From positions 1-64,000 of the forward strand of contig AP009389.1 in the NCBI GenBank assembly GCA_000010565.1: 64,000 bases of DNA, in the 5' to 3' direction. The notes under the pieces were generated by a model. It was given only the letters and a program-made list of their open reading frames with translations. It ran no database searches and had not been told where the DNA came from. Shown in pieces: positions 4,025 to 35,257 of the stretch (positions are counted from its first letter, which is position 1; each line of letters starts with the position of its first letter). This DNA is from Pelotomaculum thermopropionicum SI (lineage in GTDB: Bacteria > Bacillota > Desulfotomaculia > Desulfotomaculales > Pelotomaculaceae). The translations under genes and the position numbers were made by a program.

Positions 4025-5980
<1,956 letters not shown>

Positions 5981-5981
5981 A

Positions 5982-6030
5982 AAAGAGGAGCCGGCCCCAA
6001 AGGACGCTCCTCTTTATATTTTCCCTTTTT
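5982..6030. terminator. Bidirectional terminator between gyrB and mcp
   Basis: Perfect 10-bp stem AAAGAGGAGC (5982-5991) / GCTCCTCTTT (6006-6015) with a 14-base loop and T-rich flanks on both strands. It lies between the 3' ends of two convergent genes, so it can serve both. Confidence 0.85.
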
Positions 6031-6048
6031 TTAAGTGTTTTGCCGCTG

Positions 6049-7638
6049 CTAAATCTTGAACCGTTCTACCAGGGACTGTAGTTTGTTTGCAATGCCGGCC
6101 AGTTCCTGGGTGGCCGTGGCGACCTGCTGGATGGTGGAAGTAACCTGTTCATTGCTGGCGGAAAGCTGCTGCATGCCCTCGCTGGTCTGCTTTGCACTGG
6201 TGGCTATTTCCTCGGTCAGGACGATGCTGTTGTTTACGGCATTGATAATGTCCCTCAGGGCGTTGCCTGCCTCTGAGGCCAGGCTGACCCCTTCCCTGAC
6301 TTCCGCCGCTCCCTGGTCCATCGACTTGATGGCCGTGTCAACTCCACTCTGGATTCTGTTTATAATCTGGCCTATTTCCTTTGCCGCTCCGGCCGACTGC
6401 TCGGCCAGTTTCCTTACCTCCTCGGCCACCACGGCAAAGCCGCGCCCCTGGTCCCCGGCCCGGGCCGCCTCGATGGCCGCATTGAGTGCCAGCAGGTTGG
6501 TCTGATCGGCAATGCCGGTAATGACGTTGGTTATGTTTCCGACCTGGGCTGAAAGCTCGCCCAGGTTTCTTATCGCCTCCTGGACCCTGGACGCAGACTG
6601 CGAGATGGAGTTAATTTTATCTATGGTTTTCTGAACAGTCTCATTGCCCGTTTCGGCCACGGCAATGACCTGCCTGGACTCGCCGGCAGCCGCCTCGGCG
6701 TTTTCCATGCTCTTTTCCGCCATGGCGGCCACCTCGTTGGTGGTGCCGGCCACTTCCTCAATGGACGCGCTTACTTCCTGGCCGGACGCGGCAAGCTCCT
6801 CGCTGTGCGCGGCCAGGGTCTGGGCGTTGGTAACCACTTCTGAAATGAGTTCCCTAAGCTGTTTCGACATATCGTTCAGTGACCTTGCCAGATCGCCGAC
6901 TTCGTCTGAGGAGGCCGCTTTTATTTCCCCGGTAAAGTCGCCCTGCGCAAACCTGTTTGCCCCGTCAACCATTTCCTTAATGGGTTTTTTAATTGAACTG
7001 GAAATAAAGAAGCTTAAAATCATGCCAATTAAAAGGGCAGCTAAACTAAGGATTACGGAAATTGAGATGACTTTTAATACGTTTCGCCCTGTGTCATTAA
7101 TTTTTTGCTGGAATATTTTGTTATTATTTTCAGTAAGCCCGCGCAGGGTTTCGGTAAGCTGGCCGGTAATCGGGACCAGGCCGCCGGCTATCCGCTCAAC
7201 TTCTTTTTGGGCTGCCTGTATGGCTTCATGCTCAGTGGCTTTGTATCGTATTTCAATGGCCGGGATTAAGTCATTTTGAATGCCCTTATGATAAGCGCTG
7301 GTAATTTCAATCAATTTTTGTATTTCAGCTTTTTTATCTGCGGGGGCAATCTCGAGAAGCCTATTTTCCATTTCCAGGACCTGGTCCAGCTCCTTGTTGT
7401 AGGTGTCCCTGAAATTTTCCTTGCCGTATGCTATGTAGCCGCGGATGCCGGCAACGCCGTTATAAAAGTGAATCTCTATGTCTTTTTCAAGCGACAACTC
7501 CTGGTTAATGATGTCAATTGCATCTACGTCTTTGCTTATTGACCTTGTTTGGACAATAGAATTTAAACCCATTATAACCAGCAGCAGCAATACAATGGAA
7601 AAGCCCAACGCAATTTTTGCCCCTAGCTTTAACTTCAA
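6049..7638 (-). CDS. Methyl-accepting chemotaxis protein
   Basis: A 529-residue transmembrane chemoreceptor. An N-terminal membrane segment (about 9-28) is followed by an extracytoplasmic helical domain of the four-helix-bundle type (about 30-190). Then come a second membrane segment (about 190-213), a HAMP linker (about 213-270) and a long cytoplasmic coiled coil. The conserved signalling tip ITGIADQTNLLALNAAIEAA lies near 375. It would relay ligand binding to CheA/CheW; the ligand cannot be read from sequence. The start is TTG at 7638 with AAAGGAGG nine bases upstream. It is an orphan receptor, with no che genes nearby, and separates gyrB from gyrA on the opposite strand. Confidence 0.95.
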   Translation of the reverse strand: MKLKLGAKIALGFSIVLLLLVIMGLNSIVQTRSISKDVDAIDIINQELSLEKDIEIHFYNGVAGIRGYIAYGKENFRDTYNKELDQVLEMENRLLEIAPADKKAEIQKLIEITSAYHKGIQNDLIPAIEIRYKATEHEAIQAAQKEVERIAGGLVPITGQLTETLRGLTENNNKIFQQKINDTGRNVLKVISISVILSLAALLIGMILSFFISSSIKKPIKEMVDGANRFAQGDFTGEIKAASSDEVGDLARSLNDMSKQLRELISEVVTNAQTLAAHSEELAASGQEVSASIEEVAGTTNEVAAMAEKSMENAEAAAGESRQVIAVAETGNETVQKTIDKINSISQSASRVQEAIRNLGELSAQVGNITNVITGIADQTNLLALNAAIEAARAGDQGRGFAVVAEEVRKLAEQSAGAAKEIGQIINRIQSGVDTAIKSMDQGAAEVREGVSLASEAGNALRDIINAVNNSIVLTEEIATSAKQTSEGMQQLSASNEQVTSTIQQVATATQELAGIANKLQSLVERFKI

Positions 7639-29440: not shown

Positions 29441-29722
29441 ATGCTTGTAATCCAGATTTGCGTTGGCAGTTCGTGTTTTCTGCGCGGGTCGCGAGAGGTC
29501 ATTGAAACAGTGGAGAAACTGATAAACCACTACCGGCTGGATGACGTGGTTGTTCTTAAAGGCAGCTTTTGCATGGAGCACTGTAACGATGGGGTTACTT
29601 TAAAAATCGGCGATAAAACCTTTACAGGCGTCAACAGGGAAAGTATAACCGGTTTGTTTGAAAAAGAAGTTTTTGAACAGCTTTACGGGGTGAAAAACGA
29701 TGAGCCTGATCAGCACAAATGA
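29441..29722 (+). CDS. Thioredoxin-like [2Fe-2S] ferredoxin (HydC/NuoE-type domain)
   Basis: A 93-residue protein starting MLVIQICVGSSCFLRGS. Cysteines at 7, 12, 43 and 47 (CVGSSC ... CMEHC) match the thioredoxin-fold [2Fe-2S] domain of NuoE and HydC. It probably feeds or drains electrons to the adjacent hydrogenase-like protein. ATG 29441 has GAAGGAGAA upstream. It overlaps the hydrogenase gene by 23 bp, so they are translationally coupled. Confidence 0.85.
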   Translation: MLVIQICVGSSCFLRGSREVIETVEKLINHYRLDDVVVLKGSFCMEHCNDGVTLKIGDKTFTGVNRESITGLFEKEVFEQLYGVKNDEPDQHK

Positions 29723-31436
29723 GGCAAAATGCCGGGATTGTTACAAGTGCCTTCGCTCCTGTCCGGTTAAAGCAATATCGATTAAAACCGAAAAACCCGG
29801 TACTGCCGTGCGGGTCCGGGTTATAGAGGAGAGTTGCATCCAGGACGGCCTTTGCACTCTTGTTTGTCCGCAAAAGGCAAAGGTGGTCAATAACTGCCTG
29901 GAGGACGTAAAGAAAGCAATTGCCCGGAACACTGTGCCGGTTATAGCCAGTGTGGCGCCTTCCTTCCCGGTGGCGCTGCCGCTGCCCGAGCCGGGCTTGT
30001 TTCCGGCAATACTCAGGCGCCTCGGCTTTTCTCGCGTGGAGCAAACGGCGGTTGGAGCCGGGCTGATCTGCCTTGAACACGGCCGGATGGAGTTTAAAGG
30101 GCCGCTTATTTCCAGCGCCTGCCCGGTAATTGTAAATATCGTAGAGCGGCATTACCCCCGGTTAATACCTCATTTGTCGCCCCTGGTATCCCCTATGATA
30201 GCTCACGCCAGGCTTCTTAAAAGCCTGTACCCGGGGAGCATTGTGGTGTTTATCGGGCCCTGCATTGCCAAAAAAGGAGAAGCTCTTTCTGAGGAATTCA
30301 AGGGAGATGTCGATTATGTGCTCGGCTTTACAGAGGTATGGGAGTGGATTAAGAGTGAAGGGCTGGAAATAGAGAAGCTGTCTGCCGGGGAATTTGACGG
30401 TTACAACCCCGGGCCCGCCCGTTTGTTTCCCCTTGAGGGCGGGCAGCTGATGACAACCTCACTGAGTACGGATATGCTGGATAAAAATGTTCATGCGTTT
30501 TCCGGCTTGAAAAAGTGTATGGAGCTTCTTGCCAGTTACGGCGAGGCCGCTCCGTCGGGAAAACCGGAATTTATAGAGTTGCTGGCCTGCGAAGGGGGAT
30601 GCGTAGGCGGGCCTTATACAGTTGTTGAAAAAAGCTCTTTCATAAAGAAGCAGAAACTTTTGGATCTGCATTACCGCAGCCTTCAGGAAGAGGCTGCTTC
30701 CGGCAGGGAAGCGGAGCCAGGGCCGCAACTTCCTTCCGGGCTTTTGTACCGCACCTACCGGAACAAAAAATGCGAGCTGCCCCTTCCCAGCCCAGAACAA
30801 ATTGATAAAATACTGGCCATGACCGACAAATTTTCACCGGAAGACGAGCTGAACTGCGGGGCCTGTGGTTTCAATACCTGCAGGGACAAGGCGGTTGCCG
30901 TTTTCCACGGTTACGCCGAGCCGGAAATGTGCATTCCTTACATGAGAAGGAGGGCAGAGTCTCTATCGAACCAGGTTCTCCAGGCCCTGCCGGATGCGGT
31001 GGTTATTGTGCGGGGTGACATGGCCATTGAGGAAATCAACCCCGCAGCGGAAAAGATGTTTAATTGCACCAGGAGCGTAATCGGCCAGGACCTTGAAGTG
31101 CTGACAGATCCCACTGAATTCTTGAAAGTATTTCAGACAAAGAAGATGGTCAAGCTGGAGGTTTCCGACTTAAAAAACAAGATCGACACCAGGCAGATTA
31201 TTTTTCCTTTAGGGGACAGGGTTGTAGGCATACTTACCGACATTACCGAAGAACTGAAAAGGGAGGAAGAGCTTTCACTGGTGAAAACCCAGACCATTAA
31301 CCGGGCCCAGGAAGTAATTAAAAAGCAAATGACCGTGGCCCAGGTTATAGCCGGGCTGCTGGGGGAAACTACGGCGGAAACCAAAGCGCTGTTAAATGAA
31401 TTGATTAAGCTGATGAAAGATAAGAAAGAGAACTGA
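29700..31436 (+). CDS. Sensory-type [FeFe] hydrogenase with PAS domain (HydS/HfsB-like)
   Basis: A 578-residue protein. Two [4Fe-4S] sites lie at the N-terminus (CRDCYKCLRSCP at 11-22, CIQDGLCTLVCP at 46-57). The H-cluster domain follows with its three motifs: SSACP (C141), GPCIAKKGE (C188) and ACEGGCVGG (C297, C301). Then comes an additional four-cysteine Fe-S domain (C386, C389, C394, C411), then a PAS domain (about 425-530) and a helical end. In catalytic hydrogenases the first motif is SCCP; here the proton-transfer cysteine is replaced by Ala140, as in sensory HydS proteins. With a PAS domain and a phosphatase gene downstream, I infer an H2 or redox sensor, not a main hydrogenase. Confidence 0.88.
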   Translation: MSLISTNEAKCRDCYKCLRSCPVKAISIKTEKPGTAVRVRVIEESCIQDGLCTLVCPQKAKVVNNCLEDVKKAIARNTVPVIASVAPSFPVALPLPEPGLFPAILRRLGFSRVEQTAVGAGLICLEHGRMEFKGPLISSACPVIVNIVERHYPRLIPHLSPLVSPMIAHARLLKSLYPGSIVVFIGPCIAKKGEALSEEFKGDVDYVLGFTEVWEWIKSEGLEIEKLSAGEFDGYNPGPARLFPLEGGQLMTTSLSTDMLDKNVHAFSGLKKCMELLASYGEAAPSGKPEFIELLACEGGCVGGPYTVVEKSSFIKKQKLLDLHYRSLQEEAASGREAEPGPQLPSGLLYRTYRNKKCELPLPSPEQIDKILAMTDKFSPEDELNCGACGFNTCRDKAVAVFHGYAEPEMCIPYMRRRAESLSNQVLQALPDAVVIVRGDMAIEEINPAAEKMFNCTRSVIGQDLEVLTDPTEFLKVFQTKKMVKLEVSDLKNKIDTRQIIFPLGDRVVGILTDITEELKREEELSLVKTQTINRAQEVIKKQMTVAQVIAGLLGETTAETKALLNELIKLMKDKKEN

Positions 31437-31453
31437 AAGGGACGGGTTTATTA

Positions 31454-32605
31454 ATGCCGTTTTACCTCGATATTGGATACTCTCAGCTAAATAAAAAAGG
31501 GGAAGAGCTCTGCGGCGATTCAGTAGAGATTCTCCGTTCGGAAAAGTCCACCGTAATAGTATTGTCCGACGGGCTGGGAAGCGGGGTAAAGGCCAACATT
31601 CTTTCCCGCATCACCGCCAAAACTGCAGCAACCATGTTAAAGATGGGATGCCTTATAGATGAAGTAATTGAAACCATGGCCGAAACCCTGCCCGTATGTA
31701 ATGTCAGGCACCTGGCCTACAGCACTTTTTCCATTGTCCAGATCTTTAACGACGGAAGGGCTTATCTGGCCGAATTCGACAACCCTCCGGCCTATCTTGG
31801 TTATGAGAATGAGATTTTGCCCTTAAAAAGAGAAGAGCGCACGGTTAGGGACAAACAGGTGAAGGAAACCCTTCTTGACCTGATGCCCGGGAACTGGATA
31901 GTCTTAATTAGTGACGGCGTTCTCCATGCCGGTTTGGGGAATGTCTTGAACTTCGGGTGGGGGGACCGCCAGCTTGGCAGGTTCATTAAGGAAACGGCAG
32001 GCCAGAACCTCGAAGCAAACGACTGGGCCGAGACAATTACGGAAAAGTGCAATGAGCTTTATGGGGGGCTTCCAGGGGATGACGTAAGCGTTGTTGTCAT
32101 TAAGATCAGGGATACCAGGAAACTGACGGTTTTGGTAGGCCCCCCGAGGTCCAGGGCTGACGATAGAAAAGCAGTTGGCAGTTTAATCCGGACGGAGGGC
32201 AGGAAAGTTGTTTGCGGCGGATCCACCAGCAACATGGTAAGCAGGATATTGTTGAAAGAACTTGTCATCGACATGAGCTCGTTTTCTGAGGATGTTCCGC
32301 CTACGGGAACAATTGAAGGGATCGACCTGGTTACGGAGGGTGCTATTACCCTCTATCATGCGCTGGAAATGCTTAAAAAGGGCGTCAAGCTGAGAAGCCT
32401 GGCCGGGGCTAAGGACGGGGCAAGTTTATTGCTGGCAGAGTTTCTCAGGGCTGATAAGGTTCATTTTATCGTCGGCCTGGCGGTGAATCAGGCCCAGCAT
32501 TACCCCGGTTTCCCGCCGGCGTGTTTATTGAAAAATCAAACGGTCAGGGATATCGCGGAAATCCTGAAAAGCATGGGGAAAGAGGTAACCATCGAATACC
32601 TTTAG
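31454..32605 (+). CDS. SpoIIE/PP2C-family protein phosphatase with C-terminal extension
   Basis: A 383-residue protein. Residues about 5-215 form a PP2C/SpoIIE-type phosphatase with the metal motif VLSDGLGSGVKANILS near 36, VLISDGVLHAG near 156 and the late GDDVSVVVIKI near 205. The remaining 170 residues are a soluble alpha/beta region with no domain I can name. It lies 17 bp after the sensory hydrogenase gene. Similar phosphatases accompany a subgroup of sensory [FeFe] hydrogenases, so it is the likely output of the sensor. The phosphoprotein target is unknown. Confidence 0.85.
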   Translation: MPFYLDIGYSQLNKKGEELCGDSVEILRSEKSTVIVLSDGLGSGVKANILSRITAKTAATMLKMGCLIDEVIETMAETLPVCNVRHLAYSTFSIVQIFNDGRAYLAEFDNPPAYLGYENEILPLKREERTVRDKQVKETLLDLMPGNWIVLISDGVLHAGLGNVLNFGWGDRQLGRFIKETAGQNLEANDWAETITEKCNELYGGLPGDDVSVVVIKIRDTRKLTVLVGPPRSRADDRKAVGSLIRTEGRKVVCGGSTSNMVSRILLKELVIDMSSFSEDVPPTGTIEGIDLVTEGAITLYHALEMLKKGVKLRSLAGAKDGASLLLAEFLRADKVHFIVGLAVNQAQHYPGFPPACLLKNQTVRDIAEILKSMGKEVTIEYL

Positions 32606-33473: not shown

Positions 33474-33545
33474 TTGCTATAAAATGTCTAAATATTTTTT
33501 ATCCTATTTTTGAAACATATTTTCAATAATAGAAACAAAGGAGTG

Positions 33546-34322
33546 ATGGCGGTGAAGTACGACATTTACACTGCGGTGGCCATTCAGCCGGAAGTGAAGG
33601 TAGTGGAGAAGAGGAGCGACATAAAAAAGAATTTGCAGCGCTGCCTGGAGCTTATCGATGCAGCCCCTCAAACAGCACCGAGTGCTAAGGAAAAGTACGA
33701 AGGCAACTGGGCGCCCATTAAGCTCGTCTCTTTCCCGGAATTTTTTATTCAGGGACATGAGGGGCACTGGCCGTTCGACCACTACATCAATGAAGTTCTT
33801 ATCGACATTCCCGGCGAGGAAACCGAGCGTTTGGCCGAAAAAGCCAAAGAATACCAGATTTATATTGCCGGCTGCGCGCTGGAAAGAGACAAGGACTGGA
33901 TCGACGACGGATACTTCTTTAACACCCACTTCATCATCGGGCCTGACGGGAAAATAATTCATAAGTACCGGAAAATCACCGTGGCCACCCATTATGAGCT
34001 GGCCGTAAGCCCGCATGATGTCTACGACAAGTTCGTTGCCATGCATGGCGATGATCTCTCCGTATTTCTCCCCGTCACCGATACCGAGATCGGGAAAATC
34101 GGCACCATTACCTGTATGGATGGACATTTCCCGGAGACAGCCAGGGCCTTGGGGGTACAGGGCGCCGAGGTCATTCTCCACCCGCTGCTGGTCGAGCCGA
34201 TGATGTCGCCTCCCCAGGAGATCTGGCAGATGATGAACAGGATGCGGGCCTGGGAAAATGTCTGTTACGTGATTGCCGCCTCCGTTCGACTTACCTTTCG
34301 GAATATGTGCCAGCTAAGGTGA
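33546..34322 (+). pseudogene. Nitrilase/carbon-nitrogen hydrolase, 3'-truncated by deletion
   Basis: The first 245 or so residues are a good carbon-nitrogen hydrolase: the glutamate in VSFPEFF, the lysine in KYRKITVATHYEL and the nucleophile cysteine in GTITCMDGHFPE. After YVIAAS the reading frame runs into unrelated sequence (VRLTFRNMCQLR, stop). In another frame that DNA encodes the middle of an MFS transporter. The conserved C-terminal part of the nitrilase is missing. ATG 33546 has AAAGGAGTG upstream. A single deletion joining two neighbouring genes explains both fragments; the product is probably inactive. Confidence 0.8.
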
Positions 34323-35257
34323 GAGGGCGGTTTGTCAGCGTTTTTAACGCCTGTTTCTCTTTGGGCGTTGCCCTGGCCTATTTTCTGGGATATCTGGTTG
34401 TCGTCCCCTTTGGATGGAGATGGGGTTTTGCAATTGGAGTACTGCCCATTTTAATGTTTTTTGTGGCCAAAGCCACCCTTCCTGAATCCGTGCGGTACCT
34501 GCTGGAAAAGGGGAAAATAGAAGAAGCGGTAAGAATAGTTGAACAGATTGAGAAAAAGATTCTTAAAAGAGTGACCGTGCCCTTTGAAGAAGCGGTTAAA
34601 ATTGAGAGAGAAGCTGCTGCATCGCAGCGCAAGGAGTCCAGGATAGGGATAGCCGACCTGTTTACCAGGGGAATGGCCAGGTATACAATCGTTGTTGCCA
34701 TAGCATGGTTCAGCCTGCAGTACTGTGTTTACGCAATTATGGTCTGGATGCCTGTGGTATTGAGGACGGAACTCGGCTTTCAGCTGGCGACGGGGCTTTC
34801 TTTCCTGGCCCTTGGATCGCTTTTGGGAGCTGCGGCAACACCGCTTTCCGGCATTGCGGCAGACACGATCGGGCGGAAAATATCGCTGTGCGCGATATTC
34901 ACCATTTACGGCATTATCCCTTACTTCCTGTTTCTCCTTGGCAGGGACCCGGCGCTCGGCTTTATCCTTTTAATGCTTACCCTTATTGTCGTCGGGCTGA
35001 TTAACGGCATAGTGTATGTTTACAGTCCCGAAAACTTCCCGACCAAGGCGCGGGGGGCCGGGATGGGGTTTGTCACGGCCGTCGGCCGGGTGGGCGCCAT
35101 TGCCGGCCCGACGATTGTGGGGTTCATTTACTCTGTGGCGGGGTTTATCTGGGTGCTCCATGTCAACATTGCCCTGCTGCTGTTTGGCGCCATTGTAGTG
35201 TGGATTTTTGGCCGGGAGACAAAGGGCAGGGTCCTGGAAGATATCGAAAGCAGTTAG
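34289..35257 (+). pseudogene. MFS transporter, 5'-truncated by the same deletion
   Basis: The frame begins in TYLSEYVPAKVRGRF, the conserved cytoplasmic loop motif that normally lies near residue 120 of sugar/aromatic-acid type MFS carriers. About eight membrane segments follow, with GIAADTIGRK near 180 as the second-half repeat of the motif. The first four membrane segments are missing. GTG 34307 could be used as a start but lacks a proper ribosome site. It would have been a 430-450 residue transporter, perhaps for the substrate or product of the truncated nitrilase. Confidence 0.8.

Follow-up and report, generated by a model that had tools for sequence, protein, structure and literature searches.

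Why should an [FeFe] hydrogenase that has lost its proton-transfer cysteine be encoded directly in front of a protein phosphatase, and what would the two proteins do together? The question is raised by three co-directional open reading frames (ORFs) on the forward strand of the first 64,000 nucleotides of the Pelotomaculum thermopropionicum SI genome (GCA_000010565.1, contig AP009389.1, positions 1 to 64,000; hereafter the window). They encode a small [2Fe-2S] thioredoxin-like protein of 93 amino acids (aa; 29441..29722), a putative sensory [FeFe] hydrogenase of group C3 type with 578 aa that we call HydS (29700..31436), and a SpoIIE-type PP2C phosphatase of 383 aa (31454..32605) that ends in a further domain, here named CT. 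The first gene overlaps hydS by 23 nt, and the phosphatase gene starts 17 nt behind hydS. An earlier note, made from the sequence alone, had described these three genes and their domains at the same positions, and ORF analysis, Pfam searches and, for the phosphatase, AlphaFold prediction with Foldseek have borne it out. The trio belongs to a known kind (HydDB group C3, hfsABC, Ruminococcus albus hydS) and is not a new system. We consider it likely that the three proteins work as a group C3 [FeFe] hydrogenase signalling unit (the hfsABC/hydS type) that senses H2 or redox state and in which HydS gates the phosphatase.

The assignment of HydS is based on Pfam matches, a tree and a site survey of 48 phosphatase-paired HydS proteins. 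Pfam and alignment place two ferredoxin clusters at its N-terminus (29712..29879; Fer4_7, residues 10-60, 2.2e-8), followed by the H-cluster domain (29937..30614; Fe_hyd_lg_C, residues 80-305, 1.3e-53), an extra four-cysteine Fe-S domain (30849..30938; PF04060, residues 384-413, 2.2e-10) and a PAS domain with approximate bounds (30960..31244; PAS_8, residues 425-473, 1.1e-5; PAS_9, weak, residues 431-517). The H-cluster cysteines are complete (C141, C188, C297 and C301); the first three are invariant in 48/48 paired proteins and C301 is present in 46/48, while all four cysteines of the extra domain (C386, C389, C394 and C411) are found in 48/48. In place of the group A catalytic features (the proton-transfer Cys and the Met residues at CpI positions 353 and 497), HydS carries Ala140 (codon 30117-30119; motif S139-A140-C141-P142) where CpI has Cys299, Gly186 where it has Met353, and Leu295 at the site of the second conserved Met. 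From the alignment and the CpI positions, we take Leu295 to correspond to Ser267, and Phe243 to Tyr223, of the Thermotoga maritima enzyme TmHydS. The proton-transfer Cys is lost in 47/48 paired HydS, and Ala is the commonest residue at this position in sensory enzymes, at about 43% (PMC10055695). Asp49 (codon 29844-29846) replaces the second Cys of ferredoxin cluster 2 in the window protein; an Asp at this position occurs in 17 of the 34 paired HydS of the order and in 4 of 14 others, and the aligned unpaired hydrogenases all have Cys there.

The genome is a single contig of 3,025,375 bases with three further [FeFe] hydrogenases, all located away from the trio. In a tree of 74 rows, window HydS falls in a clade of phosphatase-paired forms (Shimodaira-Hasegawa-like approximate likelihood ratio test, SH-aLRT, 95-99), whereas the group A rows, among them the other three [FeFe] hydrogenases of this genome, fall together elsewhere (100% SH-aLRT), and the NCBIfam group A and group B models score far below cut-off on it. 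Placement within the bulk hydrogenases, which the earlier note had named beforehand as an outcome that would speak against it, was therefore not found. The sensory-type assignment that it had made, here specified as group C, is thus supported by sequence comparison, in a tree whose rows do not include the named group C references (TmHydS, RaHydS and the HydDB sequences). Complete H-cluster ligands, separation from groups A and B, a four-Cys Fe-S domain with a PAS domain, and a linked phosphatase gene are the group C3 features found in the window.

HydS and the phosphatase form a genuine and specific pair. CT is present in 121 of 399 genomes of a phylum sample, and 143 CT places were checked there, with the window's own copy and split second pieces left out. 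In the tables, 114 of these places directly follow a HydS; the loci of 19 among the 29 left over were read, and HydS adjoined in 17, which brings the total to at least 131. CT copies apparently without HydS thus mostly reflect the scoring limit of the phylum search; the remaining 12 places comprise one phosphatase without HydS (locus L126), three free-standing CT, one contig end and seven unread. Within the order, almost all genomes with matches to full-length HydS and the CT-phosphatase encode the two side by side and in the same direction, and because the same arrangement is kept in many genomes a chance arrangement is ruled out. The two proteins also co-evolve as specific pairs: over 34 pairs their distances correlate with r=0.93, whereas the best of 2000 permutations reaches 0.17, and in three genomes with two pairs each, r is 0.91-0.96 for the real pairing versus -0.42 to 0.15 with the paralogues swapped. 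The coupling to a PP2C phosphatase claimed earlier is thereby supported as a partnership. A central place of the sensor in syntrophy is not; the pair is common in the phylum and not special to syntrophs.

Some loci depart from this arrangement. In L126 the CT-phosphatase (5087-6226) has a DUF3810 protein, a peptidase C26 and a GTPase as neighbours, with HydS neither adjoining nor found in the genome at E<=1e-50. Several genomes of one genus have lost HydS from between the [2Fe-2S] and phosphatase genes (L038 5649-7152, L039 5644-7152, L045 3639-4953 and L048 5644-7152). Both neighbours are intact, and a short 3' remnant is left, which in L045 can still be recognised as the end of HydS; further copies of HydS are present in these genomes.

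Where might HydS hand its signal over? The most conserved 25-residue stretch across the 48 paired proteins lies in residues ~535-566 (AQEVIKKQMTVAQVIAGLLGETTAETK, 31302..31397), where conservation is 0.87, as compared with 0.79 in the Fe-S domain and 0.56 in the H domain. This stretch, called helical from its sequence pattern, has the signature GETTAET, which is missing from same-order group C relatives with fused outputs. Conservation and signature comparison together indicate that the C-terminal helix is probably a docking or output element specific to the phosphatase-paired forms. The relatives have a sigma-54 activator with a Fis-type helix-turn-helix (HTH; L095), GGDEF and HD domains (L094) or a methyl-accepting chemotaxis protein (MCP) signalling domain (L100) on the same module, which is for this reason an input module; a shared input that can be combined with different outputs is the build expected of a sensor. 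The output of the paired forms would then most simply be the helix plus a separate phosphatase.

Group C-type hydrogenases with a sigma-54 activator and a Fis-type HTH were found at L095 3939-6143, L096 4123-6387, L097 3280-5478 and L099 2797-5058, the fusion being identified by Pfam for L095 and by alignment to the same region or grouping with L095 for the other three. The HydDB outputs for C1-C3 are histidine kinase, chemotactic and phosphatase, and do not include a sigma-54 activator (PMC5037454). The GGDEF and HD fusion at L094 3963-6395, probably shared by L107 and L098, suggests H2 control of cyclic-di-GMP, as far as domain content can tell. A histidine kinase output, considered for some forms in the tree, was rejected, these being fused to the sigma-54 activator or GGDEF/HD instead.

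The third gene is predicted to encode a protein phosphatase of the SpoIIE/PP2C type. Pfam matches SpoIIE at residues 30-218 (2.4e-14), the AlphaFold model searched with Foldseek has the SpoIIE/PP2C fold with a match to Bacillus subtilis SpoIIE at 2e-12, and the metal-binding Asp residues D22, D39, D154 and D209/D210 are conserved in an alignment of 45 sequences. Its nearest solved relatives are SpoIIE, RsbU-type and RsbX phosphatases. CT (residues 223-383, 32120..32602) is the least known part of the system. It gave no Pfam, NCBIfam or PDB-sequence match, so the earlier description of the phosphatase C-terminus as lacking a family stands; its length is ~161 residues and not the 170 given there. 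The structure prediction proposed in that note has been run, and yielded a confident alpha/beta domain (predicted local distance difference test, pLDDT, 90; predicted template modelling score, pTM, 0.87), for which a Foldseek search of CT alone against PDB folds gave no match at E<0.001. A likeness to methylglyoxal synthase was rejected (Foldseek TM 0.42, E 0.067; hhalign probability <1% against the CarB/PurH domain profile). Conserved CT motifs are GPP, CGG(S/T)T, TEG and a C-terminal GK.

CT also occurs by itself. Seven genomes of a single family encode a free-standing CT of 152-159 aa directly behind HydABC, the bifurcating hydrogenase genes, at loci without the phosphatase (L061-L067, e.g. 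L061 5123-5602), and these genomes hold HydS-phosphatase pairs elsewhere. Because of this location, CT is tied to hydrogenase metabolism independently of the phosphatase. We tentatively propose that CT may be a new hydrogenase-dedicated regulatory domain recognising HydS and/or HydABC (or a small redox ligand), the fused form targeting a PP2C phosphatase to hydrogenase metabolism, the stand-alone form serving as a free HydABC regulator, and the HydS C-terminal helix being the matching output element.

A link to HydABC is likewise visible in the small [2Fe-2S] protein (Pfam 2Fe-2S_thioredx, 1.4e-6), probably the hfsA equivalent, which has the ligands C7, C12, C44 and C48 in a CxxxxC and CxxxC pattern. 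Its relatives match residues ~589-669 of the ~670-aa HydA, whose own Pfam match covers 589-661, and it is thus homologous to the Trx-like domain at the C-terminus of the HydABC subunit HydA. Among 39 loci from the order, 16 have HydABC beside the pair, and HydA or HydABC is next to it in 15 of 20 further loci from a selected sample.

From the observed parts, with their conservation, pairing, co-evolution and intact catalytic and ligand residues, we infer the following course of events. HydS would bind H2 at an H-cluster adapted to slow turnover, and the small [2Fe-2S] protein would serve the complex as a redox partner. The change would be relayed via the Fe-S clusters and the PAS domain to the C-terminal coiled helix, which would dock on the phosphatase and gate its activity. 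CT would aim the phosphatase, a Ser/Thr phosphoprotein would be dephosphorylated, and the output would adjust the expression of HydABC and fermentation genes to the H2 level. Two Hanks-type kinases in the genome could be the source of the opposing phosphorylation; a Hanks-type kinase domain is seen at G000:C1:129241-129966 (L155), within an open frame of 2075 residues. Published results from other species fit such H2/redox control of the phosphatase by HydS, by analogy. In Thermoanaerobacterium saccharolyticum, ethanol and adhE increase when either hfsA or hfsB is deleted, and the high ethanol yield needs hfsC and hfsD, being lost when both are missing as well (PMC5707799); in R. albus, a cluster of HydS, adhE and hydrogenase falls 111-fold in H2-consuming co-culture (PMC6776011).

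Several points weigh against this picture. The C-terminal cluster of the group D relative TamHydS is not reduced by H2 (PMC13104023), which makes signalling by simple electron flow through that cluster doubtful. The window pair stands apart from HydABC, which is located elsewhere in the genome. Moreover, a HydS beside the phosphatase is not strictly required, since the HydS-deleted loci keep both neighbours and L126 has no HydS.

Could the primary signal instead be the intracellular redox state, delivered as ferredoxin or NADH via the small [2Fe-2S] protein, with H2 merely equilibrating at the H-cluster and the phosphatase reading a redox gauge? The homology of the small protein to the HydA domain favours this, as do its gene directly preceding the phosphatase where HydS has been deleted, and the finding that deletion of hfsA, its probable equivalent, phenocopies the loss of hfsB (PMC5707799). 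However, that deletion also lowered the hfsB-D transcripts (PMC5707799), so the phenocopy may be polar, and the near-complete invariance of the H-cluster ligands would be wasteful without H2 chemistry; we regard a pure redox signal as possible, if somewhat unlikely. A related issue is the target. The phosphatase might act post-translationally on HydABC itself, which it would recognise through CT, and not on a transcription regulator. The free-standing CT behind HydABC and the frequent adjacency of the pair to HydABC favour this. We nevertheless think it unlikely, because the effects in the hfs mutants and R. albus are at the transcript level (PMC5707799, PMC6776011), and gene adjacency alone names no substrate, the window HydABC being encoded elsewhere.

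The kinship with SpoIIE, RsbU-type and RsbX phosphatases raises the possibility of partner switching, in which the substrate of the phosphatase would be a STAS anti-anti-sigma factor, as it is for SpoIIE and RsbU. Yet among the three SpoIIE-family phosphatases above the Pfam cut-off and three STAS proteins of the genome, the STAS/HATPase pair 2376149/2376525 comes with a phosphatase of its own next door (2377119), and the pair 1264687/1265070 is most simply SpoIIAA/AB, served by an 845-aa SpoIIE-like protein at 185120. No STAS/kinase pair without a phosphatase was evident in the genome, and no STAS gene was seen beside the HydS-phosphatase pair; since the existing pairs appear to have their own phosphatases, a STAS switch is quite improbable here. 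Finally, HydS might be an ordinary, slow H2-metabolising enzyme with an unrelated neighbour. All H-cluster and most relay cysteines are intact, and TmHydS has measurable activity (PMC10055695), but the tight, near-exclusive pairing with paired co-evolution, the loss of the proton-transfer Cys in nearly all paired forms and the reuse of the same input module with other outputs make this reading very hard to sustain. Gating of the phosphatase by an H2/redox-sensing HydS is therefore the interpretation we prefer.

Turning to the surroundings, the next gene after the trio encodes an IclR-family regulator (Pfam). Matches to a Rex-type operator near the operon and a promoter scan of the window were both at chance level. 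At 33510-35257, a carbon-nitrogen hydrolase ORF that lacks the C-terminal end continues into a major-facilitator transporter ORF that lacks ~130 residues at the N-terminus; it looks as though two genes had been fused by a deletion.

For H2 sensing by anaerobes with [FeFe] hydrogenases, we found no demonstrated group C3 output in the open-access literature. The pairing data now make this group testable, as they point to the HydS C-terminal helix, the CT domain and, as the likely downstream concern, HydABC. No description of the CT domain, its free-standing form, the signature helix or the paired co-evolution was found in the open-access literature. For the syntrophic host, a transcriptome study lists four hydrogenases, one NiFe and three Fe (PMC6046458); HydS is its fourth [FeFe] hydrogenase and is absent from that list.

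How does the trio compare with known systems? HydDB group C3 has the same link of a group C hydrogenase to a Ser/Thr phosphatase and the same proposed role; HydDB labels the group 'phosphatase-linked (putative)' and calls its role undetermined, and the part of the description covered here does not mention a CT domain or signature helix (PMC5037454). The hfsABCD operon of T. saccharolyticum, to judge from its published description, has the same order of a small HydA-like protein, the PAS-hydrogenase HfsB and the serine phosphatase HfsC (PMC5707799, PMC11837493), which would make the window phosphatase the hfsC equivalent. However, the fourth gene, hfsD, for an [FeFe] hydrogenase, is not in the window operon, where the IclR-type regulator follows instead, and the trio is thus not a complete hfsABCD operon. 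R. albus likewise has a PAS-bearing HydS and a Ser/Thr phosphatase gene, but HydS there shares a transcript with adhE and a group A hydrogenase (PMC6776011), whereas the window trio stands alone. TmHydS also has an Ala at the proton-transfer position (A131), a Gly at the Met353 position (G177), and the extra Fe-S and PAS domains (PMC10055695). Lastly, the SpoIIE/RsbU phosphatases share the PP2C fold and catalytic Asp residues with the window phosphatase; in contrast to their membrane, PAS or RsbT-type regulation, the window enzyme has the CT domain and a HydS partner.

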